Below, in pieces: positions 468 through 15,498 of a stretch of DNA of 33,042 bases. A program made the translations under genes and the position numbers. The notes beneath the pieces are model-generated. The model was not told where the DNA came from. It made no database searches and saw nothing but the letters and a program-made list of their open reading frames with translations. The stretch's first letter is position 1; the number at the start of each line of letters is the position of its first letter. Origin of the DNA: Deltaproteobacteria bacterium (lineage in GTDB: Bacteria > Desulfobacterota > Desulfobacteria > Desulfobacterales > JAHEIW01); contig JAHEIW010000027.1 of NCBI GenBank assembly GCA_024639185.1, forward strand, positions 5,786 through 38,827. Reading direction: 5' to 3'.

Positions 468-1271
468 ATGAAGCGAGACTTTCCGTTTTCGTTTGAGCTC
501 CTTTACCAGGTGTTTTCTTTGATTGTCATCGTCATTATTGTGCATGCCATCTATGTGGCGGTGATACGGCCTAAAGCCGATGCTATTTTGGCCAAACAGG
601 CCATCGCGATGGCCGAAGACAAATCACAGGTCATGGAACGCTCGGTATTCGTTCTGATCCGTGATTATGAGCAGGAAACCTGTTTTATCCTGATGTTCTG
701 GGCGATGGCCATTATGGGGTACAAAGCATTCAGAACGTCACGCCAGAGGGCATTACTGCAAATGGATCTGATTCCGGTGGCAGAAGGCGAGCGCATTTTG
801 CCGGAGGACACCCGGGATGTATCCCGGCAGATCCAGGCGCTGCCCGCTCAGCAGCGCGACGCTCTGGTCCCCCGGGCATTGCTGTCCGGACTGCAGCGAT
901 TCAGCACCACTCGCAATATTCAGGATGTTGCCAGCGCCACGCGTGCCTATTGCGATTCGGAAGCAGAACGCCTGGAATCCGAATTGTCCATGATTCGCTA
1001 TATTGCCTGGGCCATCCCGTCTGTCGGCTTTATTGGAACCGTGCGGGGTATCGGCGACGCGCTGGGTCAGGCGCATAAGGCCATTGAAGGCGATATTTTT
1101 GACGTGACGCGCAGTCTGGGCGTCGCTTTTAATTCAACTCTGATTGCGCTGCTTATCAGCATCGGTCTGATGTTCCTGCTACATCAGTTACAGCAGACGC
1201 AGGAGCATTATGTCCTGGATGCGGAAACCTATTGTGATGAAAATTTGATCAGTCATCTGTATGTCAAGTAA
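468..1271 (+). CDS. TolQ/ExbB/MotA-like stator-type membrane protein
   Basis: The product is a 267-residue membrane protein with hydrophobic segments at about 12-33, 70-87, 176-196 and 216-239. The third segment carries PSVGFIGTVRGI (184-195), which matches the P-x-x-G-L-F-G-T-V-x-G-I signature of TolQ/ExbB channel subunits. The fourth has a Thr (T224) in the position class of the conserved pore Thr. The long 88-175 stretch between TM2 and TM3 would be the cytoplasmic domain. By family knowledge such proteins form pentameric ion channels around a dimeric TolR/ExbD/MotB helix. The two VWA genes downstream supply candidate partner helices. No gene of known Tol, Exb or flagellar systems is nearby. 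The start is the first ATG; its ribosome binding site is weak. Confidence 0.75.
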   Translation: MKRDFPFSFELLYQVFSLIVIVIIVHAIYVAVIRPKADAILAKQAIAMAEDKSQVMERSVFVLIRDYEQETCFILMFWAMAIMGYKAFRTSRQRALLQMDLIPVAEGERILPEDTRDVSRQIQALPAQQRDALVPRALLSGLQRFSTTRNIQDVASATRAYCDSEAERLESELSMIRYIAWAIPSVGFIGTVRGIGDALGQAHKAIEGDIFDVTRSLGVAFNSTLIALLISIGLMFLLHQLQQTQEHYVLDAETYCDENLISHLYVK

Positions 1272-1272
1272 T

Positions 1273-1406
1273 GGCGGTTGTGACCGCCGGGTTCAACGGT
1301 TCCAGGGTTCAGGGTTCCCGGTTGCGATCAATGGCTACTGGCGGCTGGTTACTGGCTTCTGGCAAACCATCAAAAACTTCTGGCCAGCAGCCAGCAGCGA
1401 GTAGCC
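1273..1406. repeat. Intergenic inverted repeats after the stator-like gene
   Basis: Just after the stop codon a perfect 6-bp hairpin GGCGGT-TGTG-ACCGCC spans 1273-1288. Further on, 1333-1364 (GGCTACTGGCGGCTGG and variants) pairs imperfectly with 1378-1406 (CCAGCAGCCAGCAGCGAGTA). The arms consist of degenerate CTGG/GGCT words. There is no U-tract, so intrinsic termination is unlikely. Confidence 0.5.
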
Positions 1407-1463
1407 AGCGGCTGACTCGCTAAATCGTGTAACTTGTGATCCTTAGATAAGAAAGTAACCCTT

Positions 1464-2885
1464 ATGAGCGTATTAGGCGTAGAACTGAGCGATGCCGGTA
1501 TTATGGTTGCCGGCGCTGATCCACCCGGGCTGTTAAAAATCGATGGCGACAGCGTGGAGAGCCCCGGATTCGCTCTACCCGAAAAAAAACGGCTGGCGGT
1601 TGGCGCTGCCGCACAGAGAAAAGCACATCTTTATCCCCGGCAAATCCTCAACCAATTCTGGGACCAGCTAAACACCGAGCCGCTGGAACAGACCAACCCG
1701 TTTGCACACAATCATGCTGAGATCGCCTATGAGCACTTTGCCAGTATCTGGCAGCGTATCCGGCAGCACGGGGACGAAATGGTTGTAGCTGTGCCGGGCT
1801 TTTATACGCGCGCGCATTTAGGCATAATTCTGGGCATCACGAATGAATTGGGCATCCGTGTAAAAGGCTTTACCCCTATCGCCATAGCTGCGGTGCCGGA
1901 TCAGCTGCCGCAGGGATTATGGCTACACCTGGATTTACATTTGCAGCGTTTTGAAGTCACCCATCTGCAGCGGACAGATCAGCTCAGCCGCGAAGAATCC
2001 GTTTCTGCGGAAGGCAGTGGTTTGAGCACATTATACCGCAGGTGGGTAGACGCCATCGCTGAAGAATTTGTGCGCCACACCCGCTTTGATCCATTGCACC
2101 GGGCCGCCACCGAGCAGGAGCTGTACGATCGTTTACCCGGCATTCTGGCGCAGCTCAATCAACATGCAAGTGTTCAACTTGAAATGACCGGTGGCTCCAA
2201 AGTCTATCACGTTACGCTGACAAGGGAGCTCTTTGGCAACACGGCCAAGCCTGTCGCGCAAGAAATCCGTCGTCTGATTGCTGGTTTATGCAATCGCCAT
2301 GACCCGGGTGCGTCCGGACGGGTGCTGCTGCTTACGAATCGTTTTGCCCGACTACCGGGCGTTAAACATATGATGGGCGGAATAGAAAATTGTACAATGA
2401 TGACGCTGCCGGCCGGATCCGGTGCCCTTGGCGCCTTACGATTTTACGACACCCTGAGCCAGCAAAACGACAACCGCAGCGCACCATTTCTAACCACCCG
2501 GCGGTTGCCGCTCAAACAAACCCCAGCGGTAGAAGCAAAACGTCAACCGCCACCCGCTCAACAGCGACCGACCCATATTTTGTACCGCAATCTGGCCTAT
2601 CCGATTGGAAAAACGCCCTTAATCATCGGTCTTGCCGGCGTTAAGGATGCATCCGGCATTCAAATCAAGGGTCAGGTTGCCGGGGTTTCCCGCAAACATT
2701 GCTCGGTTCAACTGCACGATAATCAAATCATTATAAAAGATCACAGCACTTACGGCACCTACGTAAACGAAAATCCGGTCGCCGGAAATGCGGTGCTGGA
2801 GCTGGGCCAGGTTATTCGCGTTGGCACACCGGGTGAAAAACTAAAACTGATCGCATGTCTGGATACAGCAAACCATGAAACGTAG
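1464..2885 (+). CDS. Actin/Hsp70-fold-like protein with C-terminal FHA domain
   Basis: This is a 473-residue soluble protein. Residues 1-330 begin MSVLGVELSDAGIMVAG and include VVAVPGFYTR (107-116) and a late LLLTNRFARLPG segment, the layout of Hsp70/FtsA-like ATPase folds. The nucleotide-binding motifs are weak, so this half is an inference. A Pro/Gln-rich linker (about 335-370) leads to an FHA domain (about 371-467) with the hallmark residues GVSRKH (407-412) and STYGTYVN (428-435). FHA domains bind phosphothreonine peptides, which suggests control of the complex by a Ser/Thr kinase that is not encoded in this window. The end overlaps the next gene by 11 nt, implying co-translation with the first VWA protein. 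Confidence 0.75.
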   Translation: MSVLGVELSDAGIMVAGADPPGLLKIDGDSVESPGFALPEKKRLAVGAAAQRKAHLYPRQILNQFWDQLNTEPLEQTNPFAHNHAEIAYEHFASIWQRIRQHGDEMVVAVPGFYTRAHLGIILGITNELGIRVKGFTPIAIAAVPDQLPQGLWLHLDLHLQRFEVTHLQRTDQLSREESVSAEGSGLSTLYRRWVDAIAEEFVRHTRFDPLHRAATEQELYDRLPGILAQLNQHASVQLEMTGGSKVYHVTLTRELFGNTAKPVAQEIRRLIAGLCNRHDPGASGRVLLLTNRFARLPGVKHMMGGIENCTMMTLPAGSGALGALRFYDTLSQQNDNRSAPFLTTRRLPLKQTPAVEAKRQPPPAQQRPTHILYRNLAYPIGKTPLIIGLAGVKDASGIQIKGQVAGVSRKHCSVQLHDNQIIIKDHSTYGTYVNENPVAGNAVLELGQVIRVGTPGEKLKLIACLDTANHET

Positions 2886-3963
2886 AGCTGTCAACGTATT
2901 CAATTTATCGTTTCTGGATATCATTACCTGCGGTCTGGGCGCGGTTATCCTTTTGTTTGTGCTGGTCAATGCCAAAAGTGCCGCGCAACGGGATTCAATC
3001 ACATCGGATTTTCGTGCCGAGGCTGAGCGCGTGGAGCAGGAGGTTCTGGCAGCCAAAAAGGATCTGGTTCTGGCCCGCAATTCCCTGGAGCAGACGCAAA
3101 CAAAACTGGTGCGTACCGAAGGCCTGTCCCGCCAGATCATAGAAATACTGGAACAAAAAAAAATTGAGCTGTCCGATCGACAGGATGACACCCTGGCCAC
3201 CCAGGAACATGTCAACAAATTAAAAGCGGATCTAAAATCAATTGAGGAAGAGCTCAAGCGCCTGCGCGCCGGAGCCAAAACCCAGGATGACCAGGGCACC
3301 CGCTTGCGAAAATTTCCAGGACAGGGCGATCGTCAATACTTAACGGATCTGAAAATGGGCGGGCGGCGGATTTTTATCCTGGTGGATGCCTCGGCCAGCA
3401 TGCTGGATGAAACAGTGGTGGGCATCATCCGCAGACGCAACCTGAGCAGCAAAGAAAAGCTAAAATCCGCCAAATGGCGCCGGGCGGTCGCAACGGTCAA
3501 CTGGCTGACCACACAGCTACCCTCAACAAGCCAGTTTCAGATATATGCCTTTAACGAAAATGCCCGCCCGTTGCTCGAAGGCACCGCCGGAACCTGGCTG
3601 GATGCCGGTAATGTGGACCAGCTCAACCAGGCTGCCAATGGGATCCGAGGCGTTGTTCCGGAAAAGGGGACGAGTCTTTTAAACGCCATCACGGCCCTGC
3701 GCAAGATGAAGCCCGCCCCGGATAACATTTTTTTGCTGACCGACGGACTGCCAACGATGGGGGCGAGTAAACCCTGGCGCAGACGGGTGTCCAGTGATAA
3801 GCGGTTGAGTCTGTTCAAGGCCGCCATCAAGGAATTTCCAAAAGCACCGGTAAACATTATTTTGTACCCGATGGAAGGCGACCCGCTGGCGGCTGATGCC
3901 TATTGGCGCCTGGCAAAACGGTCACGGGGTTCCTTTTTCTCGCCATCAAAGGATTGGCCCTGA
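2875..3963 (+). CDS. TolR-like helix / coiled coil / VWA domain protein, first paralogue
   Basis: The product has 362 residues. A short basic N-terminus precedes one membrane helix (about 13-32) reading LSFLDIITCGLGAVILLF. D15 sits where TolR and ExbD carry their proton-carrying Asp. Residues 38-135 are a charged heptad-rich coiled coil. From about 160 there is a VWA domain with an intact MIDAS: D171-A-S-A-S175, T265 and D289 (in LLTDG). The predicted topology is N-in with the VWA domain in the periplasm. The gene overlaps the FHA gene by 11 nt. It is paralogous to the next gene in architecture and helix sequence. Metal-dependent ligand binding is inferred from the MIDAS; the ligand is unknown. 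Confidence 0.8.
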   Translation: MKRRAVNVFNLSFLDIITCGLGAVILLFVLVNAKSAAQRDSITSDFRAEAERVEQEVLAAKKDLVLARNSLEQTQTKLVRTEGLSRQIIEILEQKKIELSDRQDDTLATQEHVNKLKADLKSIEEELKRLRAGAKTQDDQGTRLRKFPGQGDRQYLTDLKMGGRRIFILVDASASMLDETVVGIIRRRNLSSKEKLKSAKWRRAVATVNWLTTQLPSTSQFQIYAFNENARPLLEGTAGTWLDAGNVDQLNQAANGIRGVVPEKGTSLLNAITALRKMKPAPDNIFLLTDGLPTMGASKPWRRRVSSDKRLSLFKAAIKEFPKAPVNIILYPMEGDPLAADAYWRLAKRSRGSFFSPSKDWP

Positions 3964-4024
3964 TCGATTTTGGATTTTAGATTGCGGATTTCGGATTTAT
4001 TGCTTGGATCCTGAAGATTGAACG
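3964..4024. repeat. Short intergenic run of GGATTT/TTTTAGATT words
   Basis: The 61-bp gap between the two VWA genes contains tandem variants of the words GGATTTTAGATT and GCGGATTTCGGATTT. The same word family recurs at 5028-5145 after the second VWA gene, where it forms an inverted repeat. Confidence 0.4.
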
Positions 4025-5026
4025 ATGAAAAAAAAACGAAGAGACATCCAAATTTTTAGCTTATCCTTCTTGGATTGCATCTGCTGCGGATTTGGAGCGG
4101 TAATTCTGCTGTTTGTGTTATCCAAATTTGCCGAGCCGTTGATCATTGAAGAGGTAAAAGAAGATCTGGAAGCCAAAATCGTGCGGCTGGAAGAGGAATT
4201 GGTGGAAATCCGGGGCGAAACAGCCGTATTGAATCGTGATTTGACAGCTAAAAAACAGCAGTTGTCGCAAGAAAGAATCCGGCTCGCGCGCCTGCAAGGT
4301 GATCTTTCCAAAACTAAAGGACAGTATGCGGCATCCAAAGATACCGCCCAGGTCCAAAATATTATCGAGGGTCAACTGGCGCGCGCCATGCAGGAATTAA
4401 CCGCAGAGATGCGGCGTCTCCTCAAGCAGCAGCCGCGTAAGGTCGAAAGCGCCATCGGCGGTATTCCTGTGGACAGCGAATATATCATATTTATCATTGA
4501 CACATCAGGCAGTATGCAACGCAATGCCTGGTCCCTGGTGCAACGAAAACTAAGAGAAACCCTGAATGTATACCCGAAAGTTAAAGGTATTCAGGTCATG
4601 AATGATATGGGCGAATACATGTTTTCGCAATACCGGGGCAAGTGGATTCCCGACACGCCGCCCCGCCGACGGGCCATCATTTCACGGCTGAGCTCATGGC
4701 AGGCTTTCAGCAATTCCAGCCCGGTTGAAGGCATCACGGCCGCCATCCGAACCTTTTATGCAACCGATAAAAAAATCAGCCTGTATGTTTTCGGTGATGA
4801 ATTCAGCGGTCCGCGGATTCAACCGGTTGTCGACGCTGTGGATCGCATCAACAAGCGCACAAAAGACGGCTCCCGGCGCGTTCGCATACATGCCGTCGGT
4901 TTTCCGGTGGTCATGACAAAGACGCGTATGCGAGGCAACACGGGGGAACGCTTTGCGACGTTGATGCGCATTTTGTGCCACAAAAACGGCGGCACTTTTG
5001 TGGGGCTTAATTCAACGAGACCGTAA
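4025..5026 (+). CDS. TolR-like helix / coiled coil / VWA domain protein, second paralogue
   Basis: The product has 333 residues and the same architecture as the preceding gene. The membrane helix (14-33) reads LSFLDCICCGFGAVILLF, with D17 at the TolR/ExbD Asp position. A coiled coil spans about 42-135. The VWA domain starts near 150 with MIDAS D159-T-S-G-S163. The shared helix signature, LSFLDxIxCGxGAVILLF, shows that the two genes arose by duplication, while their VWA domains have diverged. Two different copies suggest a heterodimer inside the stator channel, as MotB and TolR dimerise; this is inference. The extra cysteines at 18, 20 and 21 in the helix are unusual. The start is the ATG shortly after the gap repeat; the Shine-Dalgarno is weak. 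Confidence 0.8.
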   Translation: MKKKRRDIQIFSLSFLDCICCGFGAVILLFVLSKFAEPLIIEEVKEDLEAKIVRLEEELVEIRGETAVLNRDLTAKKQQLSQERIRLARLQGDLSKTKGQYAASKDTAQVQNIIEGQLARAMQELTAEMRRLLKQQPRKVESAIGGIPVDSEYIIFIIDTSGSMQRNAWSLVQRKLRETLNVYPKVKGIQVMNDMGEYMFSQYRGKWIPDTPPRRRAIISRLSSWQAFSNSSPVEGITAAIRTFYATDKKISLYVFGDEFSGPRIQPVVDAVDRINKRTKDGSRRVRIHAVGFPVVMTKTRMRGNTGERFATLMRILCHKNGGTFVGLNSTRP

Positions 5027-5027
5027 A

Positions 5028-5145
5028 TTGATTTTAGATTTTAGAATTTGGAATTTGGATTATTAAGACCTTGAAATTATCTTTTATAAGGTGATCTGCA
5101 TACTTCGACTTCTGTAAATCCAAAATCCAAAATATAATTGGTCAA
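5028..5145. repeat. Intergenic inverted repeat of TTTTGGATTT words
   Basis: The gap 5027-5199 starts with TTTTAGATTTTAGAATTTGG variants and ends with AAATCCAAAATCCAAAATAT, giving an imperfect inverted repeat with AT-rich arms. The words match those in the preceding gap (3964-4024). No promoter is evident. Confidence 0.5.
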
Positions 5146-5199
5146 AAAATTCTTTTAACGATTTAGAACCAAAAGTAATAAGTAAAAACGAGATGGTAG

Positions 5200-5700
5200 A
5201 TGGATTTAACCTGCCCCAGCTGCAACCAAAAGTTGCCGGAAGTCGAAACGCTCAAATATCGATTTTGCCCCCATTGCGGTGCTGAAATCGACACCAAGCC
5301 CCGGCGGCTCGACGAAGCGTTTTTGACCATACCCCCGGATTTGCCGCCAATAGCGGTAGACGCTAAGCCAAAAGATCCCGGTCTTGCCCCGGAAAGAACA
5401 ACACCCGAAAACGGGCAGTTTAATGATCAAACCATCGCTCCGCAGCCCATCACCCCGGAAAAACGGCCGCATATCAGACCGCCGGCTGAACCGCCCCCGC
5501 CCGGTTTCTTCCGAACCCTGCCTTCAGAGAATGATCCGCCGCCATCCATACCCAAAAAACAGCTGAAGAAAAAGGCCGACCCGCCACTAACGAAACCTAT
5601 AAAAAAACCGCCGACAAAAAACCATCATAAGGTCATTATCGCGGTTTTGATTATACTGGCTGTGGTTATTTTAATATTGGGCTGGCTGTTTACTTTTTAA
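5200..5700 (+). CDS. Zinc-ribbon protein with proline-rich linker and C-terminal membrane anchor
   Basis: The product has 166 residues. An N-terminal zinc ribbon uses two CxxC pairs (CPSC at 5-8 and CPHC at 23-26). A Pro/Lys-rich, probably disordered linker of about 100 residues follows. One C-terminal hydrophobic helix (HKVIIAVLIILAVVILILGW) is close to the end, a tail-anchored layout with the zinc ribbon in the cytoplasm. It follows the second VWA gene on the same strand after a 173-nt gap, so it is a plausible but unproven member of the stator-like cluster. Function is unknown; zinc ribbons of this kind often mediate protein contacts. Confidence 0.7.
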   Translation: MDLTCPSCNQKLPEVETLKYRFCPHCGAEIDTKPRRLDEAFLTIPPDLPPIAVDAKPKDPGLAPERTTPENGQFNDQTIAPQPITPEKRPHIRPPAEPPPPGFFRTLPSENDPPPSIPKKQLKKKADPPLTKPIKKPPTKNHHKVIIAVLIILAVVILILGWLFTF

Positions 5701-6107: not shown

Positions 6108-7382
6108 ATGGCTAATTTAATTCCACCTCATGGCGGAAAAGGACTGACTTGCTGCCTGCTCGAAGGTGCTGAGCTGGAGGCTGAAAAGAAAAAGGCTGAG
6201 GGCCTTAAAAAGATTGAGGTTTCACCCCGTGAAAAGGGTGATTTGATCATGATGGGTATCGGTGGCTTCAGCCCGCTGACAGGCTTCATGACCAAGGCGG
6301 ATTGGAAAGGGGTTTGCGATAATTTTCTGATGGCCGATGGAACCTTCTGGCCCATACCGGTCACCTTATCGGCTTCCAAAAAAGACGCTGAAGGCATCAG
6401 TGAGGGTGAAGAGATTGCACTTTATGACCCGGAGGGCGATGAAATCATGGCCACCATGACGGTCACTGAAAAATTTGAGATGACCGAAGCCGACAAAAAA
6501 TACGAATGCGAAAAAGTTTATATGGGCGAAGGTACCGCCACCGCTGATGAGTTCTGGAAAATCGCCAAAGACGATCATCCGGGGGTTCAGATGGTCATGG
6601 AACAAAAAGACGTCAGCCTGGCCGGACCGGTCAAGGTGCTCACCGAAAGTGAGTATCCCACCAAATATGCCGGCGTCTATATGCGGCCGGAAGAATCCCG
6701 CAAAATATTTGAAGAACGCGGTTGGAGCGAAGTGGCTGCGCTGCAGTTGAGAAACCCCATGCATCGTTCCCATGAGTATCTGTGTAAAATCGCCGTTGAG
6801 GTATGTGATGGCGTTTACATTCATTCTCTGGTCGGCAACCTGAAACCGGGTGATATTCCGGCTGAAGTCCGCGTTAAGTGCATCGATAGCCTGGTTAAAA
6901 ACTATTTTGTTGAAGATAAGGTCGTTCAGGGCGGCTATCCGCTGGATATGCGCTATGCCGGCCCACGAGAAGGTTTGCTGCATGCCACTTTCCGGCAAAA
7001 TTACGGGTGTTCCCGCATGATCATCGGCCGCGACCACGCCGGTGTGGGCGATTTTTACGGCATGTTTGAAGCCCAGACCATTTTTGACAAAATCCCGCAC
7101 CCGGAAGAAGAAGGCAAAGCCTTGCTTTGCACACCCTTGAAAATCGACTGGACCTTTTATTGCTACAAATGCGACGGTATGGCATCGCTGCGAACCTGTC
7201 CGCATGAAAAAGATGACCGCGTCCTGCTCAGTGGAACCATGCTCAGAAAGATGCTCTCTGAAGGCGAAGCGTTGCCGGATCACTTTGGGCGTGATGAAGT
7301 CGTTGAAATTCTGCGCGCATACTACGAAGGCCTGACTGACAAAGTGGAGATCAAGCTGCACGGAGCTGCTACCGGAGATTGA
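6108..7382 (+). CDS. sat: Sulfate adenylyltransferase (ATP sulfurylase), dissimilatory type
   Basis: Catalyses ATP + sulfate to APS + pyrophosphate, the activation step of dissimilatory sulfate reduction, in the cytoplasm. The product has 424 residues, the usual length for the single-domain enzyme. The nucleotide/sulfate motif [11 protein letters not shown] (213-223) and the GRDHAG motif (307-312) are intact. A Cys/His cluster near the C-terminal third (CYKC, then CPH) matches the structural zinc site of archaeal/dissimilatory sulfurylases. The start ATG is preceded by AAAGGAG. No APS kinase domain is fused, as expected for respiration. The gene has its own terminator and points toward the qmoC end of the apr/qmo genes, whose products use its APS. 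Confidence 0.97.
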
Positions 7383-7411
7383 TTTGATCATCTAAAAATT
7401 GCGCAGAAATC

Positions 7412-7446
7412 AAAAGGGAGCCGCCGCAAGGTGCGCTCCCTTTTTT
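7412..7446 (+). terminator. Rho-independent terminator of sat
   Basis: The stem AAAAGGGAGC (7412-7421) pairs with GCTCCCTTTT (7435-7444). The inner CGCC/GGTG extension closes on a GCAA tetraloop, and a T-run follows. On the - strand it also resembles a terminator (A-run on the other side) and could serve the convergent qmoC transcript. Confidence 0.9.
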
Positions 7447-7543
7447 CATTCAAAATCTCAGCACAAATCATAAAGTAAAGTAAGTTTTAAGATCAGCAGG
7501 GCTATTATTTACCCACTGGAGTGTTCGTATGAATATTTCTTAT

Positions 7544-8701
7544 CTAGAAGTTCCTACCCGCATATTCATTATACGCCATCGCCACCGTGCGGTAGACAAA
7601 ATGGACCATTTTTGAAAACGGCAGATAGGCGATCAGGCAAAAAACCAAAATCAGGTGGATATAGTATATCGCAAAGCTGATGGTCGCCAAACCCGCCAGT
7701 CGTGCCAGTTCGGTCCCCATACCGGTTACCCCCAGCCCGAAGGCAAGATAAACCAGATACCAGTCCCAGTAGTCCGATTTTTGATCTTTTTTAGCAGCAC
7801 GGCTCTTGATTAAAAGGATCGTACCGACAATCAGGGCAATGCCGCTGATATTGGCCAGCCATTTGATCGGATTCAGCTGGGACCAGGGGCCATGAACCGG
7901 ACCGCTGGGCAGCAAATATGATCCATAGATCAACAGGAAAACGACCGAAGTCACGATAAACAGCCCGATAAAAGAAAATAGGGTCAACAGGTGCGCGATC
8001 TGGCGGTCTTTGTTCTCGGTGCATTGCGAAAACTTATTGTGTGTCATGATGGTGGGAATGACGCGCACCAGGGCCTTGACAAAACCGACCGGTTCTATTT
8101 TTTCCTGCTTGGTCTTGCCCTCGGCCAGAGCGTTCTGGTGGATATCGCCTAAAAAGCGTTTGAGACCCAATGCTAAAACAGCAACCGCAAAAATGGCGGC
8201 CGGGAGCATTGTCATGTCCACCAGCCAGGTAGAGAAAAATTTATAATGCGCAATTCCCTGGCTAAGATCGGGTGTAAAATCGAGCAAACCGGTGATGCTC
8301 CCCACTACCAGAAAAAGTACCGCCGGGATTGCCAGCAACAGCGGCAGTTTTTTAGGATCTTTGAGAGCACTTACCAGCCATTTGGGCCCGGCATATTCGC
8401 CAATGGCATAGGTCCGCACCGCTGCCAGCACATCACCCGGTTTGGCTTCCCGCGGACAACGTGTTGAACAATCACCACAGTTGTGGCACAACCAGATGTC
8501 GGAACTACCCACCAGCTTGTCTTTTAAGCCCCATGATGCGGCAATCATTTCTTTGCGCGGAAACGGTTTGTTATCCGGCGAGATGGCGCAGGCCACCGAG
8601 CAGGTTGCGCATTGATAGCACTTTTTGAGGTCTTCACCCCCCAGTGCGCCGACTTCTTTGATAAAATCTAAATCAGGCTCAATAACATAAGGTTCAGCCA
8701 T
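7544..8701 (-). CDS. qmoC: Quinone-interacting membrane-bound oxidoreductase subunit C
   Basis: QmoC is the membrane subunit that takes electrons from menaquinol and passes them to QmoAB and then AprBA. The product has 385 residues. The N-terminal HdrC-like part has two [4Fe-4S] motifs, C28/C31/C34/C38 and C72/C75/C78/C82 (each CxxCxxCxxxC). The C-terminal part is a cytochrome-b-like domain with hydrophobic segments near 119-140, 164-181, 240-259, 282-299, 315-330 and 338-360. Possible haem-ligand histidines are H237, H349 and H367. I chose the start at 8701 because GGAGGT lies 7 nt upstream. A longer in-frame extension to 8851 would read into a repeat and has no such site. A 279-nt repeat-bearing gap separates it from qmoB. 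Confidence 0.95.
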   Translation of the reverse strand: MAEPYVIEPDLDFIKEVGALGGEDLKKCYQCATCSVACAISPDNKPFPRKEMIAASWGLKDKLVGSSDIWLCHNCGDCSTRCPREAKPGDVLAAVRTYAIGEYAGPKWLVSALKDPKKLPLLLAIPAVLFLVVGSITGLLDFTPDLSQGIAHYKFFSTWLVDMTMLPAAIFAVAVLALGLKRFLGDIHQNALAEGKTKQEKIEPVGFVKALVRVIPTIMTHNKFSQCTENKDRQIAHLLTLFSFIGLFIVTSVVFLLIYGSYLLPSGPVHGPWSQLNPIKWLANISGIALIVGTILLIKSRAAKKDQKSDYWDWYLVYLAFGLGVTGMGTELARLAGLATISFAIYYIHLILVFCLIAYLPFSKMVHFVYRTVAMAYNEYAGRNF

Positions 8702-8791
8702 ATTCTTACCTCCTACGGAATCGAAAACCAGCGGCGAGCATTTCATGCCGCCCATCTTCAATAAAAAAGGGTTATTCGCTTCGTTCACCCA

Positions 8792-8908
8792 TGGAATAAT
8801 GGAATGGTGGAATGTTGAAATATTGAGAAACAAAAGATGCGAGTGTTTCAAATGGCCTCATCCTTCTGTCCCCCAGTATTCCGTTCTTCCAGAATTCCAT
8901 CATTCCGT
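8792..8908. repeat. Inverted repeat of GGAATGG/ATTCC words inside the qmo operon
   Basis: The left arm 8792-8814 (TGGAATAATGGAATGGTGGA) pairs imperfectly with the right arm 8875-8908 (TTCCAGAATTCCATCATTCC). About 60 nt of loop contains CATCCTTCTGTCC. It lies between qmoB and qmoC, whose products form one complex, so transcripts must read through it. It has no terminal U-tract. Confidence 0.6.
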
Positions 8909-8980
8909 GCCGTTCGTACCGATTATTTTCAAAGTAGCAACTTGAAAGAGGAAAGTTGAAAAATTCCACAATGACTGCCA

Positions 8981-11317
8981 TCAAAATCCCTTAAAGGGGT
9001 TCGGGCCCATTTCCTCAACAGAAGCCACAAAATCATCGACGATTTGCGGCAGTTTGTCATATTCATCGATGGCCACCTGGAATTGTGCCACACGCTCTTC
9101 TTCAAGCGCCAGGCTCGCCAGGGCATCGCCGATTTTTTTCATGCGGATTTCGGCCAGTTCACTGCCCTTGACAAAATGGCACTGGTAGTCGTCGCCGTGT
9201 TTGCACCCCAATAAAAACACACCGTCCATACCCTGGGCCAGGGCATCTTTGATCCAGATGACGTTGACCGAGCCCAGGCACCTGACCGGTATGAAGCGCA
9301 CATCGGCTGAATAGCTCAAACGATTGAGAGCGGCAATATCCAGGGCCGGGTAAGCATCATTTTCACAGATCAGTCCCAGAATTCGCAACGGCGGCTCATC
9401 ATAATCGTCTTCAGAGGGCACGCCAATGGCCTTGACCATCGATCCGATACTGTCGATGCTATAATCGCAAAAGTTGATGATGCGCTCCGGGCAACACCCC
9501 ATACAGGTGCCGCAGCGGCGGCAACGTGCCGGATTCGGCTTGGGCGTTCCCTTTTCATCGTCATCAATAGCGCCGAAGGGGCATTCCTCCGTGCAGCGTT
9601 TACACTGGGTGCAGCGCTGGAAGAAAAAGTCGGGAAAGGTCATGTCACCCGATCGCGGATGAACCGAAACCCCGCGGTTGACTGACTCCAGGCATTGAAT
9701 CGCTTTCAAGGCCGCTCCGCTGGCATCTTCCACTGCTTCTTCGGTGGTCATGCTGCGCCGGATGGCACCGGCAGCATAGATACCGGTTCGCTGGGTTTCA
9801 TAGGGAAAACAGATAAAATTCGAATCGGCATAGTCATCAAAGAGCGCGTTATCACGAAATCCGGGCCCCTGACGGTAAGCCAGATTGATGACCGGGTCAT
9901 CGGCGGTTACTGGCACCATACCGGTTCCCAGCACCACCATATCGGCCTTGACCTGGACCTTTTCGCCCAGCAGCGTATTGTCGGCTTCAATAATCAAGTT
10001 CCCCCCGTTTGTCGAAACGCGGGTGACTTCGCCTTTGGTTAAAAAGATGCCCGGATCCTGCTGAATGTTTTTGTAGAAGTTTTCCGTCAGACCCACGGCA
10101 CGCATATGCTGGTAAAAGACATAAGACTTAGCGTCCTCGTAATCCTCACGCAGGTATTTGGCCTGTTTGAGCGCCACCAGGCTGGTCACGGCACCGGCAT
10201 AACCAAAGTCCTTGTCGTCCCCCTGGCCGGGGCTCTGGATAAAGACAACGGATTTGGCCTCTTTGCCGTCTGAAGGCCGTATAATTTTACCCATGGCGGC
10301 AATCTCTTCAAACTGCTGGTTGGTGACGACATCGGCCATCTGGCCATACCCCAGATGGGCAAATTCACCTTCTTCAGGCTCGTAAGGTCGCCATCCGGCC
10401 GCCAGAATCACAGCACCGAATTTTTCACCATTGGGATCAAGCTGCAGAATGTCCTGTTTGCCCTTATTGTATTCCATAAAGGCTTCATGCATTTTTTCGG
10501 CATCCAGCTCCTGGCCTTTCTCGTCGAGCTTCATCTCATCCGGCAGGGGGAACGGAACGTCGAATTCCGTTCTATCGCCTGGCTTTTTAAGGGTCACTAA
10601 AAAATCACCCGGTTCCCCGGCGATGCGCCCGACCACAGTCTCGGTTCTGACCGTAATATTGGGATAGTTTTGAAGGTCATTAATCTTGGTTTCGATCACG
10701 GGCGCAATCAACCCCTCATAGGGATAGGCGCCGGGCAGCTGTTTTCGCCACCGCTTGGCATTGCCGCCTAAAGACGCTTCTTTTTCAACAATGGTGACAT
10801 CATAGCCGATTTTAGCCGCATCGATGGCCGCCGAAATCCCGCTGATACCGCCGCCGATCACCAAAATCTTTTTATTGAGCGCCTCCAGCAGATAGGGCTC
10901 CGGCAGCTCGACTTTTTTGACGCGTGCCATGCCCATCTTTAAATAATCTTCGGCCATCAATTGAACGTGATCGACGAAGTTGTCATCGTCTTTTTGTTCT
11001 TCGGTGGGAGCCGGATATTTTGAGCGGGGGTGTGTCCAGACCACTCCTTCTCGTAAGTTCACCCGATCCACGATGCAGCCGTCAAAACGGAAAACATCAT
11101 AAAGCACCCGTCGGGAGCAGGCAGCAATCACCAGCGTGTTGACGCCTTCATCGGCAATATCCTTTTTAAGGAGATCGACTCCGGCTTGACCGCATAAAAT
11201 CGGACAGGTTTTGACCGGAAGTCCTTCCTCCTTGGCGACATCGCCCAGTTTTTCGATATCGACGGCCTCCCCGATCCCACAACCTTCGCAGATATATATA
11301 CCGTATTTTTTATCCAT
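8981..11317 (-). CDS. qmoB: Quinone-interacting membrane-bound oxidoreductase subunit B (HdrA-like with MvhD-like tail)
   Basis: QmoB is a cytoplasmic FAD/iron-sulfur subunit of the Qmo complex that connects to APS reductase. The product has 778 residues. The N-terminal region carries spaced cysteines (C10, C13, C38, C42, C67). The FAD-binding Rossmann motif is VIGGGISG (153-160), with the acidic end of the second strand at E178. Two ferredoxin motifs follow: C569/C572/C575/C579 and C599/C602/C605/C609. The C-terminal ~130 residues (RILGLICEN to LLGCKHGDDYQCHF) look like the MvhD domain that in methanogens links hydrogenase to heterodisulfide reductase. The start has AGGAGG 11 nt upstream, and the gap to qmoA is only 14 nt. 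Confidence 0.95.
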   Translation of the reverse strand: MDKKYGIYICEGCGIGEAVDIEKLGDVAKEEGLPVKTCPILCGQAGVDLLKKDIADEGVNTLVIAACSRRVLYDVFRFDGCIVDRVNLREGVVWTHPRSKYPAPTEEQKDDDNFVDHVQLMAEDYLKMGMARVKKVELPEPYLLEALNKKILVIGGGISGISAAIDAAKIGYDVTIVEKEASLGGNAKRWRKQLPGAYPYEGLIAPVIETKINDLQNYPNITVRTETVVGRIAGEPGDFLVTLKKPGDRTEFDVPFPLPDEMKLDEKGQELDAEKMHEAFMEYNKGKQDILQLDPNGEKFGAVILAAGWRPYEPEEGEFAHLGYGQMADVVTNQQFEEIAAMGKIIRPSDGKEAKSVVFIQSPGQGDDKDFGYAGAVTSLVALKQAKYLREDYEDAKSYVFYQHMRAVGLTENFYKNIQQDPGIFLTKGEVTRVSTNGGNLIIEADNTLLGEKVQVKADMVVLGTGMVPVTADDPVINLAYRQGPGFRDNALFDDYADSNFICFPYETQRTGIYAAGAIRRSMTTEEAVEDASGAALKAIQCLESVNRGVSVHPRSGDMTFPDFFFQRCTQCKRCTEECPFGAIDDDEKGTPKPNPARCRRCGTCMGCCPERIINFCDYSIDSIGSMVKAIGVPSEDDYDEPPLRILGLICENDAYPALDIAALNRLSYSADVRFIPVRCLGSVNVIWIKDALAQGMDGVFLLGCKHGDDYQCHFVKGSELAEIRMKKIGDALASLALEEERVAQFQVAIDEYDKLPQIVDDFVASVEEMGPNPFKGF

Positions 11318-11331
11318 GTCTGACTTTCCTC

Positions 11332-12609
11332 CTATCTGCTCACCAGGGTTTGAATCGCCTTAAGGGCCATTCCGGTAGCATTTTGATTGGATGAAACCAC
11401 GTCAGCCGGTTTATTGGCGCATCCGGCTGCAAACATCCCGCCTTTTTCAAAGTCATTGACGATAAATCCATCATCATTGTAGGTCAAATCGGCCGGGAGC
11501 TTGCCGGTGGCAACTGTGGGCTGCATGCCGGTTGCCAGAACCACCATCTCCACTTCCTGATGGATTTTTTCGCCAGTTACGGCATTTTCGGCCACAACGG
11601 TTACATTTTGGTTGCCTGAATCCGCGCTGACCTCAGCCACTTTACCTTTAATCAGGAAGATGTTTTCATCCTCTTTGATCGACTCATAAAAACGTTCATA
11701 GCGATACCCCGGTGTCCGCAGATCAATGTAGAAAACGTATATTTTGGCATCCGGATAGCGCTCGCGCACATAGGTGGCCTGCTTTAAGGATGCCATGCAG
11801 CAAATATAGGAACAGTATGGCAGGTGATTTTCATCACGGGAGCCCGCGCACTGCACAAACGCCACACTCTGCGGCTCTTTGTTGTCCGAGGGGCGCAGAA
11901 TTTTGCCCCGGGTCGGTCCGTTGGGCGCCGCCAATCGCTCCATCATCATATTGGTGATGATGTTTGGATATTGACCGAAACCCAGATTGTCGATATTGGC
12001 GGCATCGTAAGGCTGCCAGCCGGTGGACCACACAATGGCGCCGACGTTCAAATTCAAGGTTTTGGCTTCCATTTCAAGATCAACCGCATCATACTTGCAA
12101 GCCTCTTTGGCCCGGGTGGCATCGGACGTGCCGATGATCTCGGGGGCCACCACATAACGGGCCGGAAAGGCCATCTCAAAGGGTAAATAAGCGCCTTTGA
12201 TCTTTTGCATCCCAAAATCGTATTCGCTGTCGATTTCAGTCTGACAGGCTTCTGCACAGGCATCACAGCAGGTGCAGTTTTCATTTACATACCTCGGGTT
12301 AACTTTAACCGCTACGTCATAGTTGCCCGGGTCGCCGGAAACCGATTCGACTTCCGACAGGGTCAGGATCTTGATTCTGGGATTGTCCTTTATCCGTCTG
12401 AAATTAATTTCCAGACCGCAGGTGGGTGGGCACAACTTGGGAAAATATTGATTCAGCTGTGCGACCCGTCCGCCCAGATACGGATTTTTTTCGACCAGGA
12501 AAACCTCGTATCCCACTTCGGCAGCTTCAAGCGCCGTGGTCAGACCGCTGATCCCGCCGCCTACGACTAATATGCTTCCGCTTACCGGAGCTGCTTTTTC
12601 ATCAGTCAT
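11332..12609 (-). CDS. qmoA: Quinone-interacting membrane-bound oxidoreductase subunit A (HdrA-like)
   Basis: QmoA is the smaller HdrA-like flavoprotein of the Qmo complex, partner of QmoB. The product has 425 residues. The FAD motif VVGGGISG (15-22) is followed by E40, and KNPYLGGRVA is typical of HdrA. A cysteine cluster CTCCDACAEAC (112-122) fits one [4Fe-4S] centre. Additional cysteines occur in CPPTC (60-64) and in the CSYICC region. GGAGGGA stands just before the ATG. It is first in qmoABC. The 403-nt gap to aprA contains a terminator for aprA, so qmoABC may use its own promoter or depend on readthrough; I found no convincing promoter just upstream. Confidence 0.95.
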   Translation of the reverse strand: MTDEKAAPVSGSILVVGGGISGLTTALEAAEVGYEVFLVEKNPYLGGRVAQLNQYFPKLCPPTCGLEINFRRIKDNPRIKILTLSEVESVSGDPGNYDVAVKVNPRYVNENCTCCDACAEACQTEIDSEYDFGMQKIKGAYLPFEMAFPARYVVAPEIIGTSDATRAKEACKYDAVDLEMEAKTLNLNVGAIVWSTGWQPYDAANIDNLGFGQYPNIITNMMMERLAAPNGPTRGKILRPSDNKEPQSVAFVQCAGSRDENHLPYCSYICCMASLKQATYVRERYPDAKIYVFYIDLRTPGYRYERFYESIKEDENIFLIKGKVAEVSADSGNQNVTVVAENAVTGEKIHQEVEMVVLATGMQPTVATGKLPADLTYNDDGFIVNDFEKGGMFAAGCANKPADVVSSNQNATGMALKAIQTLVSR

Positions 12610-12700
12610 ACTTCCCTCCGTACTTTTTGCAATGTTCGATTAACAGGAGTAAACTTCCCCCACAGGGACTCCATTTTCTTCTCGCCGTGTCTCAATTTGA

Positions 12701-12855
12701 TTCAGGTGTCAGGTGTCAGTTTTTCAGAAGACAGAGGGCAGATGACAGAAGACAGATTGGAAATTGAAGTCCTTTATCTGTTATCTGTTTTCTGTTCTCT
12801 GTCATCTGTTCGCTGACACCTGTTCGCTGACACCTGACACCTGAACACTGAAACC
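12701..12855. repeat. Long inverted repeat of CAGGTGTCAG / CTGTCTTCTG words, copy 1
   Basis: The left arm begins TTCAGGTGTCAGGTGTCAG and continues with AGAAGACAGAGGGCAGATGA. The right arm carries TCTGTTATCTGTTTTCTGTT and ends GACACCTGAACACTGAAACC (12836-12855). Both arms are strings of degenerate copies of short words and fold back on each other. The terminal 20-mer is identical to the end of the copy at 15925-16060. The copies flank aprBA in the same orientation. Confidence 0.8.
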
Positions 12856-12935
12856 TATGAATGAAGTGTGAAGCAAAGAGAAATGTTGTCGCCCGCCCGC
12901 ATCGAGCTATCGATAGGCGAGCCCCATGAACAAAA

Positions 12936-12965
12936 ACCTCCAGGTGTCAGATGACACCTGGAGGT
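12936..12965 (-). terminator. Perfect palindromic terminator after aprA
   Basis: ACCTCCAGGTGTCA (12936-12949) is the exact reverse complement of 12952-12965, with a 2-nt centre. Read on the - strand, the stem is followed by TTTTTGTTC, the form of a rho-independent terminator, 48 nt after the aprA stop. Its core CAGGTGTCA is the same word as in the neighbouring inverted repeat, which suggests that the repeat family supplied the terminator. Confidence 0.85.
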
Positions 12966-13012
12966 ATCTGTTGGTTAATTAATGTTGATTCGTCTGCTTC
13001 TTTGCTGATCCA

Positions 13013-14995
13013 TTAGGCGTCCGGAATGATCTTGATATAATCTTTCTTAAAGACATCCCATTTCTGCTCTTTGGGATCATACTTGGAGTTGACAAAGCAG
13101 AACCAGTTCTCATCATCTGTGCCCGGATAATCGGCTTGATAGTAGAAGCCCGGATAACGCGTCTCTTTACGGAACTGAATATGGCGCAGATGCGATTCCA
13201 ACGTCCAGATGCGATGCTGAATCTCCCAGGCTCTCATCAGTTCGTGCAGATCACCGGCAGCCAGTTTCTCGTTATCTTCGCGCATGGTCGCCAGCAGGTC
13301 CATGACGATCTCAAGGTTCTTGGAGGTCGTCTGGTAAAAGGTGGCGGTTCCGGCACCGTATTCATGACCGGCCTTCATCATCCGATACATCATGCCGTTG
13401 GGCTTAATGTAGTTGGGGTTGATGTCATCGGCTGTGGTGTAGGCACAATGCTCCAGATAGGTCCGCACCGGTTTGTAGACAATGTCGACCAGCTCTTGGG
13501 CCGACTGGCTGATGGCCGGCGAGTAGTCTGCATTATCTTTCGCATAGCGGACCATTTCTTTAACCGCAATCCGGCCCTCGGCATGCGAACCTGAAGAAAA
13601 CTTGTGTCCGGAGCAACCGACACCGTCACCGGAGGTGAACAAACCGTCGACAGTGGTCATGCGGTTGTAAACCTTACCGTTGGCAGCCTTGATCTTGTAT
13701 GCATCCGGCACCCAGTCATAGTCCGGACCGGAGGTCCACAGACCGCAGCAGCCGGAGTGAGATCCGAGCAGATACGGTTCGGTGGGCATAACCTCGGAAT
13801 TTTTCTTTTCCGGCTCGGTATCGGTGGCGCACCACAGATTGGCCTGACCGCAGGTCATATCCAAGAAGTCTTCCCAGGCTTCGGATTCAAGATGCTTGAG
13901 CTCTTTTTTGTCCATGGTTTTGCCCAGCTCGGCCAGGGCAGAAACGGTGTCCATAATGATGGGCCCGCGGCCTTCTTTCATCTCAAAGAGCATCAGGTGG
14001 TTACGCAGACAGGTCGGTGTAATGGCTGCAGTTCCATAAGGCGCATATTTTTCCAGCTCGGCTTTAGCGGCATCACTGCCAGCAAAGGCTTCGCCCAGAC
14101 CGTTGAGGGTTTTAGCCTTAAACAGCAGAAACCAGGCCCCCACCGGGCCGTAACCGTCTTTAAAGCGGGCCGGGGTGAAACGGTTTTCCATCATGGACAG
14201 CTCGGCGCCGACTTTCATGCACAGGGTATAGGTGGAACCGGAATTCCAGACCGGATACCAGGCACGACCTTTGCCCTCGCCGACTGAACGCGGCTGGTAA
14301 ATATTAACAGCCCCGCCGCAGGCAACCATCATGGTTTTGCATTTGATGATGAAGACTTTGTTTTCGCGGACGGAAAAACCCACCGCACCGGCGATCTGAT
14401 TTTCTTTGTTGGCATCCAGTAGCAGCTCGACGATGAAGACCCTTTCCAGAACGTTTTCTTCACCGATGGCCAGCTTGGCCGCTTCGGCCACAATGCGTTT
14501 GTAGGATTCGCCGTTAATCATAATCTGCCATTTGCCCGTGCGAACCGGCTGGGCGCCTGCTTTGAGGGTACCCATTTTCTGGCCCTTTTTACCATCCAGG
14601 TTTTTACCGTCTTCGGTTTTCTTCCAGATCGGCAGACCCCATTCTTCAAACAAATGCACGGAATCATCCACGTGGCAGCCCAGATCAAAGATCAGGTCTT
14701 CACGCACAATGCCCATCAGGTCGTTGCGGACCATGCGCACATAATCATCAGGCGTGTTTTCGCCGATATAGGTGTTGATGGCCGAAAGGCCCTGAGCAAC
14801 CGCACCGCTTCTTTCCAGCGCAGCCTTATCTACCATCAGAACGCTCTGGTCATCAGACATCCATTTTTTGGCCTCAAAGGCGGCGCCGCTGGCGGCCATA
14901 CCGCCGCCGACGATCAAAATATCAACTTCACGTTCCTCGACTTCCGGGTCCTTTACAGCTTTGAGTTCCCCGATTGGTTTATTCGGTAATGCCAT
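13013..14995 (-). CDS. aprA: Adenylylsulfate (APS) reductase alpha subunit
   Basis: AprA is the FAD-containing catalytic subunit of dissimilatory APS reductase, which reduces APS to sulfite and AMP in the cytoplasm. The product has 660 residues, the usual length. It belongs to the fumarate reductase/succinate dehydrogenase flavoprotein fold. VDILIVGGGMAASGAAFEA places the FAD dinucleotide-binding motif at 24-42. SGDGVGCSGHKFSSGSHAEG later in the protein is a characteristic conserved FAD-contact stretch. AAGGAGG precedes the ATG by a few nt. It lies 65 nt downstream of aprB, forming aprBA. The protein pairs with AprB, which relays electrons probably from QmoABC. Confidence 0.97.
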   Translation of the reverse strand: MALPNKPIGELKAVKDPEVEEREVDILIVGGGMAASGAAFEAKKWMSDDQSVLMVDKAALERSGAVAQGLSAINTYIGENTPDDYVRMVRNDLMGIVREDLIFDLGCHVDDSVHLFEEWGLPIWKKTEDGKNLDGKKGQKMGTLKAGAQPVRTGKWQIMINGESYKRIVAEAAKLAIGEENVLERVFIVELLLDANKENQIAGAVGFSVRENKVFIIKCKTMMVACGGAVNIYQPRSVGEGKGRAWYPVWNSGSTYTLCMKVGAELSMMENRFTPARFKDGYGPVGAWFLLFKAKTLNGLGEAFAGSDAAKAELEKYAPYGTAAITPTCLRNHLMLFEMKEGRGPIIMDTVSALAELGKTMDKKELKHLESEAWEDFLDMTCGQANLWCATDTEPEKKNSEVMPTEPYLLGSHSGCCGLWTSGPDYDWVPDAYKIKAANGKVYNRMTTVDGLFTSGDGVGCSGHKFSSGSHAEGRIAVKEMVRYAKDNADYSPAISQSAQELVDIVYKPVRTYLEHCAYTTADDINPNYIKPNGMMYRMMKAGHEYGAGTATFYQTTSKNLEIVMDLLATMREDNEKLAAGDLHELMRAWEIQHRIWTLESHLRHIQFRKETRYPGFYYQADYPGTDDENWFCFVNSKYDPKEQKWDVFKKDYIKIIPDA

Positions 14996-15060
14996 ATCTT
15001 ATCCTCCTTGATTTATAATGCTTTTTGATCTTTCACTTTAACTAAACAAACCACGCCTTG

Positions 15061-15498
15061 TTAGACAGTTGCCTGGGGCGTCGGAATGCTATAGCCATCG
15101 GCTTCTTCAGTTGACAGCAACCCGCTTTCCAGGTCTTTGCCTTTCAGTTCCGGATACGCATTGGCCTGTCCTTCGGGAGTGGTCCGGATGGGGAACTTAA
15201 AGCGTTTGATGGTTCCGTTGCGGAACTTGCAGGTCCACATGACATCCTCAGTTCCCAGCATCGGCATAACACTGCTTCCCAGAGGCACAAAGTCGGCATA
15301 ACCCCTGACTTCGATTGCCTGGGTGGGGCAGATCTTGACGCATGAGAAGCATTCCCAGCATTGATCCGGCTCCTGGTTGTAGGCCTTCATCAAGTTGGGT
15401 TCAAGAACCATCAGATCATTCGGACAAATGTACATACAGGCGGTTTTGTCTCCGCCTTTGCATCCATCGCATTTTTCGTCTATTACATAACTTGGCAT
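15061..15498 (-). CDS. aprB: Adenylylsulfate (APS) reductase beta subunit
   Basis: AprB is the iron-sulfur electron-transfer subunit of APS reductase. The product has 145 residues. The N-terminal ferredoxin part has two [4Fe-4S] motifs: C10/C13/C21/C25 (the widened CxxCx7Cx3C of AprB) and C47/C50/C53/C57. The C-terminal ~70 residues, including TTPEGQANAYPEL, form the tail that wraps around AprA in known structures. TAGGAGG precedes the start. It is first in the aprBA unit, with a strong promoter about 240 nt upstream. Confidence 0.96.
   Translation of the reverse strand: MPSYVIDEKCDGCKGGDKTACMYICPNDLMVLEPNLMKAYNQEPDQCWECFSCVKICPTQAIEVRGYADFVPLGSSVMPMLGTEDVMWTCKFRNGTIKRFKFPIRTTPEGQANAYPELKGKDLESGLLSTEEADGYSIPTPQATV

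Follow-up and report, generated by a model that had tools for sequence, protein, structure and literature searches.

A conserved operon with a TolQ-type channel gene and two membrane-tethered VWA genes probably encodes a Tol-like envelope machine

We analyzed a 33,042-nucleotide stretch of DNA from a Deltaproteobacteria bacterium (Desulfobacterota; Desulfobacterales; JAHEIW01; assembly GCA_024639185.1), hereafter called the window, which spans positions 5786-38827 of contig JAHEIW010000027.1 (C110) in a 5.1 Mb draft genome. Its 5' end carries an operon that codes for a channel protein, Q, and for two paralogous VWA proteins, V1 and V2, each tethered by one transmembrane segment (TM). A preliminary description, made from the letters alone, had listed five open reading frames here. 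All five were recovered at their coordinates and on the + strand, and the FHA gene does overlap the first VWA gene, the two sharing 11 bases. Missing from that set were a small exported protein at the very start of the window, here called the tail protein, and three operon genes further upstream. The features of the operon within the window are as follows.

2-262, + strand: C-terminal 86 codons of the tail protein, with DFKPSEKIEAEQAVDFPYDI at about 200-259 and a stop codon at 260-262; its homologues lie between the PEGA/FGE (formylglycine-generating enzyme-like) gene and Q.
468-1271, + strand: Q, channel subunit of the MotA/TolQ/ExbB type, 267 residues, four hydrophobic segments; T191 (1038-1040) lies in PSVGFIGTVRGI, T224 at 1137-1139.
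1464-2885, + strand: AFHA, 473 residues, an accessory protein with a predicted Hsp70-type nucleotide-binding domain, a degenerate phosphate loop 2 and a C-terminal FHA domain.
2875-3963, + strand: V1, 362 residues; TM at residues 13-31 with D15 (2917-2919), coiled coil, VWA domain with the metal ion-dependent adhesion site (MIDAS) residues D171-S175 (3385-3399), T266 and D290.
4025-5026, + strand: V2, 333 residues, paralogue of V1; TM at residues 15-33 with D17 (4073-4075), coiled coil, VWA domain with MIDAS residues DTSGS (4499-4513), S231 and D258.
5200-5700, + strand: zinc-ribbon protein, 166 residues, C-terminal TM; a lineage-specific neighbour.

A scaffold gap of 100 N lies directly 5' of base 1 of the window (L009 5686-5785). 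It cuts into both the PEGA/FGE gene, at its end, and the tail protein gene, at its start, and the window therefore opens in the middle of an operon gene. Upstream on the same contig are the genes for a Ser/Thr kinase-TPR membrane protein and for a PEGA/FGE-like protein (FPS), as well as the terminal part of another gene, ORF0. FPS sits in the membrane and combines four PEGA repeats with an FGE-like domain. A role as a formylglycine-generating enzyme was considered for FPS and rejected, as the catalytic Cys pair was found in none of 42 readable motifs.

Q matched the Pfam family MotA_ExbB (PF01618) with 51.2 bits against a cut-off of 22.9, and profile comparison with the PDB gave TolQ as the nearest solved relative (E about 1e-3). 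The hydrophobic segments span residues 15-33, 72-90, 174-192 and 219-237. The preliminary assignment to a TolQ/ExbB-type channel thus holds for the sequence, but the layout, with four TMs, is MotA-like. The last two TM helices contribute T191 and T224, both of which are conserved without exception in the 71 aligned rows; the second of these is the TM4 Thr that had already been singled out. The host genome separately encodes TolQR, ExbBD and three MotAB sets.

V1 matched VWA_2 in Pfam with 30.8 bits (cut-off 27). V2 remained below the threshold of the same family (15.7 bits), yet it is a clear homologue of V1 (hhalign 99.7%, E 3e-26). Both proteins have a single N-terminal TM with a net charge of about +3 before and about -1 after it, from which an N-in topology follows. 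The Asp in this helix is present in every row aligned, 82 of 82 for V1 (D15) and 84 of 84 for V2 (D17), in agreement with the earlier proposal that a paralogous pair of Asp-helix VWA proteins replaces TolR/ExbD. The MIDAS residues are likewise invariant: D171, S173, S175, T266 and D290 in V1, and D159, S161, S163, S231 and D258 in V2. Pfam ExbD gave no match to V1 or V2, and an ExbD profile detected no ExbD/TolR gene in any of 93 loci. Searches of Pfam, NCBIfam and PADLOC returned no family specific to V1, to V2 or to the set as a whole.

The preliminary description knew of no named system with this composition, and the core idea is in fact not new. A TPH-vWA/TolQ family has been predicted (PMC12204202; Mol Biol Evol 2025, msaf138, Fig. 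4c,d) whose TM-tethered VWA proteins, mostly in heterologous pairs, show an extremely tight association with tolQ homologues in the absence of tolR/exbD. In that study the helix of the VWA proteins carries a conserved Asp, and AlphaFold 3 models put the Asp pair inside the Thr ring of a TolQ pentamer, so that VWA proteins had already been proposed as axles. The present core shares with this family a TolQ-like gene with a heterologous TM-VWA pair, the conserved helix Asp and the absence of tolR/exbD nearby; it very probably belongs to it, as judged by comparison of described features and not with the sequence of the Idiomarina seed. The position of V1 and V2, their topology, the Asp and the lack of any other partner for Q, together with the published models of this like-described family, suggest that V1 and V2 act as the axle. 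Alternatively, they could be force transducers at the side of the Q pentamer, in the manner of TolA/TonB, with another protein as the axle. Such a role was proposed for another VWA family in the same study, one with an SHLS motif. In the Planctomycetes-Verrucomicrobia-Chlamydiae (PVC) group, however, that family accompanies tolR-like genes, whereas no ExbD/TolR-like gene is found near Q, and V1 and V2 lack the SHLS motif and carry the invariant Asp. We therefore regard side transducers as unlikely.

To follow the operon beyond the window, V1 was searched for in 96 related genomes; it was present in 12, with the same gene order. A V2 profile was then compared with 85,000 species, and more than 550 relatives were among the matches listed; among the best 80 of these, which were retrieved, V2 identity ranges from 58 to 90% across almost the whole protein. 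The usual order is ORF0 (lipoprotein), TPR protein, FPS, tail protein, Q, AFHA where present, V1 and V2. It was found in Desulfobacterota, Gammaproteobacteria, Acidobacteriota, Planctomycetota, Kiritimatiellota and Gemmatimonadota, that is, in at least six phyla; at the sole Verrucomicrobiota locus, Q, AFHA, V1 and V2 were seen. The order does vary, with Q located after V2 in one genome and on a different contig in another. V2 is unevenly distributed: it occurs in 18 of 274 gammaproteobacterial genomes, 5 of 297 from Desulfobacterota, 2 of 247 from Acidobacteriota and 3 of 246 from Planctomycetota, with each sample counting its own centre genome. On the V2 tree the phylum labels require 14 changes, against a minimum of 7 and about 32 in shuffles; the distribution thus clusters by phylum, with the reservation that some submitter labels are unreliable ('Deltaproteobacteria', for example, was read as Myxococcota).

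Conserved co-occurrence of the channel gene with the VWA genes, which the preliminary description had named as a check on its proposal, held up. Of the 60 loci whose sequence extends 1.5 kb or more upstream of V1, 58 contain Q, as do all 18 V2-bearing gammaproteobacterial genomes. Among the 274 genomes of that class, 20 carry Q at 246 bits or more (the next-best match scored 107 bits), and these include all 18 with V2 (hypergeometric P 3e-26, a value that ignores kinship). In the two Q-only genomes (G204, G215), V1 adjoins Q and runs into the contig end. As for the two loci apparently without Q, the genome of L103 carries Q and AFHA on another contig, and L053 has an N gap inside AFHA with other genes beyond it, and is uninformative.

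Several observations on individual loci may be added. L188, L189 and L190 form a diverged branch (V2 265-297 bits, Q 246-258 bits) that keeps the Asp, the MIDAS and the Q-V1-V2 order and has no AFHA at the operon. L091, a contig of a 'Desulfobacterales' metagenome-assembled genome, has its V2 placed inside the gammaproteobacterial clade, a probable case of misbinning or transfer. In the gammaproteobacterial loci L106, L108, L113, L087, L082 and others, many of them from Halieaceae, V2 is followed within about 1-2.4 kb by an M48-like peptidase gene and by one or two additional lipoprotein genes. An exported protein of about 280 residues with the conserved C-terminus DDDVVARQLREAAEKETDPELKKKLWEEYRKYKQ is encoded 5' of the lipoprotein gene in 13 of 14 loci (L085 884-1726, L086 929-1714 and 12 other loci, mostly upstream of ORF0), and is a possible further component of the machine. 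In the window, genes of sulfate reduction (sat, qmo-like, apr-like) lie 3' of the operon (6108-15498); sat is its direct neighbour in several Desulfobacterales and not elsewhere.

A relationship to the anti-phage system Zorya also has to be weighed, as Q gave a weak match to ZorA2 (E 0.026). PADLOC returned no other meaningful match, however, V2 was found on none of 72,556 plasmids, the operon keeps its place beside sat in several Desulfobacterales, and a VWA domain stands where ZorB has an OmpA-type domain. A defence function is therefore very improbable.

The window's AFHA contains an FHA domain (40.3 bits; Pfam cut-off 20.7). The predicted structure of AFHA (predicted local distance difference test, pLDDT, 89.6) combines this domain with the fold of an Hsp70 nucleotide-binding domain. 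The model superimposes on the nucleotide-binding domain of DnaK with a TM-score of up to 0.78 on the target, and phosphate loop 2 is replaced by an LD-x-HLHR-like sequence. Of the label 'FHA/actin-like' used before, the first half stands; the second is better given, on the strength of this model, as a degenerate Hsp70 nucleotide-binding domain. The phosphate-binding Arg of the FHA domain is retained in 5 of 35 AFHA rows and is missing from the AFHA of the window. Moreover, 12 gammaproteobacterial genomes without AFHA at the operon have no full-length copy anywhere in the genome, and all 12 fall in one clade of the V2 tree. AFHA is thus an accessory scaffold, and optional. Recognisable kinase motifs were found in 12 of 54 complete upstream TPR proteins; some of the others may hold degenerate kinases, and the kinase-less proteins retain one TM near the N-terminus. 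With the kinase optional, the Arg mostly lost and AFHA gone from the 12 genomes, the phosphothreonine gating proposed in the preliminary description is not a general property of the system. The same evidence bears on the idea that Q, V1 and V2 form a signalling complex, that is, a gated ion path or a sensor by which the binding of a ligand to the VWA domains is signalled to the kinase and the FHA protein. The operon of the window does contain both a Ser/Thr kinase and an FHA gene, but where either or both are lacking Q, V1, V2 and the periplasmic parts persist. This, together with the loss of the Arg, makes signalling an improbable main function.

The zinc-ribbon protein had been taken for an anchor within the complex. 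Its gene, with a weak zinc-ribbon match in Pfam, was found only in the genus of the window and in one neighbouring genus (G005); the protein is probably outside the core machine. Its restriction also counts against an AglRQS-type motor for gliding or surface adhesion, with FHA and zinc-finger proteins nearby as in GltG/GltJ. AglRQS does pair one channel protein with two Asp-helix proteins, and VWA domains take part in the adhesion of gliding Myxococcus (cited in PMC12204202). However, a TonB-like part is missing from AFHA, and no other Glt-like gene was seen, although no search with Glt profiles was made. On balance, we give a gliding motor little credit.

In contrast to the zinc-ribbon gene, the tail protein gene is a regular part of the operon. 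All 64 loci that have FPS and Q on one strand carry it between these two genes; 62 of the tail proteins were found by sequence pattern, and those of L084 and L112 were added to them. The consensus of the tail is FxPSExIxADxAVxFPxDI. Every one of the 62 tails in the alignment has Pro at -4 and Asp at -2, and 61 have Ile at -1; Pro -4 and Asp -2 belonged to the search pattern, so that their invariance is in part by construction. The positions F -19, P -17, E -15, A -11, D -10, V -7 and F -5 were not fixed by the pattern and are conserved nonetheless. In a profile search, each of 12 genomes examined had one clear copy of the protein, and wherever the location could be established this copy was at the operon. 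The protein therefore appears to be a part dedicated to this system, and the single copy led us to reject the tail as a general sorting tag. MIDAS domains bind acidic ligands. Since the Asp at -2 is conserved, the tail is a natural candidate for the ligand of the VWA metal sites.

At the other end of the operon, ORF0 carries a lipoprotein signal in relatives with a complete sequence. Structure comparison of its model (pLDDT 79.7) gave a match to the TolB N-terminal domain (probability 1.00, E 1e-3); outside this TolB-N-like domain the model is helical. In ORF0 of L056 (306-1535), residues of about 230-352 are modelled as a long hairpin of two helices that includes a hydrophobic stretch rich in glycine; it bears a loose resemblance to the pore hairpins of AhlB-type proteins (weak Foldseek matches).

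Together, these findings suggest that the operon probably codes for a Tol-like, proton-driven trans-envelope machine, with V1 and V2 as a VWA-bearing axle in a wheel of Q. Q would form the wheel in the membrane, by analogy a pentamer, and V1 and V2, which always occur together, would supply a two-helix axle to which each contributes one N-in helix. The invariant Asp of V1 and V2 would face a Thr ring made by T191 and T224 of Q. Proton flow would then turn or strain the axle, and the long coiled coils would transmit this motion to two periplasmic VWA domains with intact MIDAS. These domains would engage partners encoded in the same operon and located in the periplasm or the outer membrane, namely the TPR protein, the PEGA/FGE-like protein, the TolB-N-like lipoprotein and the tail protein. 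AFHA, as a pseudo-Hsp70 with an FHA domain, would be an optional cytoplasmic platform, and the kinase domain may add control in some lineages. Thus, the ion-driven envelope machine of the preliminary description appears sound in its main idea, and what falls away is its phosphothreonine gating. The biological task is probably envelope maintenance or outer-membrane coupling. Possibly, though this more specific version is doubtful, the two MIDAS VWA domains of a heterodimeric axle grip the C-terminus of the tail protein and pull on, or release, the TolB-N-like lipoprotein in the outer membrane, as a proton-driven, metal-dependent ligand catch.

Certain points weigh against a Tol-like machine of this design. 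The likeness of the V1/V2 helix to ExbD is weak: hhalign aligns Asp with Asp only at the cost of a gap that follows, and against a cleaned ExbD profile 8 of 200 block shuffles scored as high as V1 and 17 of 200 as high as V2. (An earlier ExbD profile scored better, but it contained some wrongly oriented rows, and the result with the cleaned profile is the one used.) The match of ORF0 to the TolB N-terminal domain is partial (TM-score 0.22 over the query), and the contact between tail and MIDAS is purely one that we infer. Finally, the structures predicted here are those of single chains, and no member of the set has a known phenotype.

If the proposal is correct, VWA as a load-bearing domain would add a type to MotAB, ExbBD, TolQR, AglRQS, GldLM and ZorAB, and a VWA-axle motor would be spread over at least six two-membrane phyla. 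We found no report in the literature of a functional test in any organism, and no paper that matches a combination of TolQ/ExbB with VWA, FHA, PEGA and kinase. The 2025 paper named the motor core only, whereas the conserved neighbours give concrete partners, above all the single-copy tail protein, and the zinc ribbon and phosphothreonine control can be set aside as misleading ones. The advance over that work thus lies in a larger conserved machine with a tail protein of its own, and in a core that no longer includes the zinc ribbon or phosphothreonine gating; the core motor had already been predicted. Most of the conserved parts beyond the core, the tail protein included, seem not to have been described before. 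In the context of TPH-vWA, the main text of PMC12204202 names no PEGA/FGE protein, TolB-N-like lipoprotein, kinase or FHA-Hsp70 protein, and its section on the family does not describe a small exported tail protein. Moreover, that study reports mainly Proteobacteria and Verrucomicrobia, to which loci from Acidobacteriota, Planctomycetota, Kiritimatiellota and Gemmatimonadota are now added.

Among known systems, Tol-Pal has in common with the present one a TolQ-type channel, Asp-helix partners, a TPR protein and a lipoprotein, here with a predicted TolB-N-like domain. The present system differs in the VWA domains on its axle, in its four-TM channel and in lacking a nearby axle gene of the ExbD/TolR type (the profile searches did not cover TolA or Pal), and the host keeps a separate TolQR. 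The AglRQS-Glt machine of Myxococcus xanthus likewise joins one channel protein to two different Asp-helix proteins, and more widely it includes FHA and zinc-finger proteins. The Agl axles carry TolR-like domains, however, where V1 and V2 carry VWA, and neither the zinc ribbon nor FHA is core here. Zorya (ZorAB) uses a channel of the same superfamily, but PADLOC found no ZorB-type domain and no ZorC, ZorD or ZorE, and a defence context is lacking. With the motor family at large (MotA/TolQ/ExbB with MotB/TolR/ExbD), the operon shares the channel family, the invariant Thr residues and a partner with an N-terminal Asp helix.

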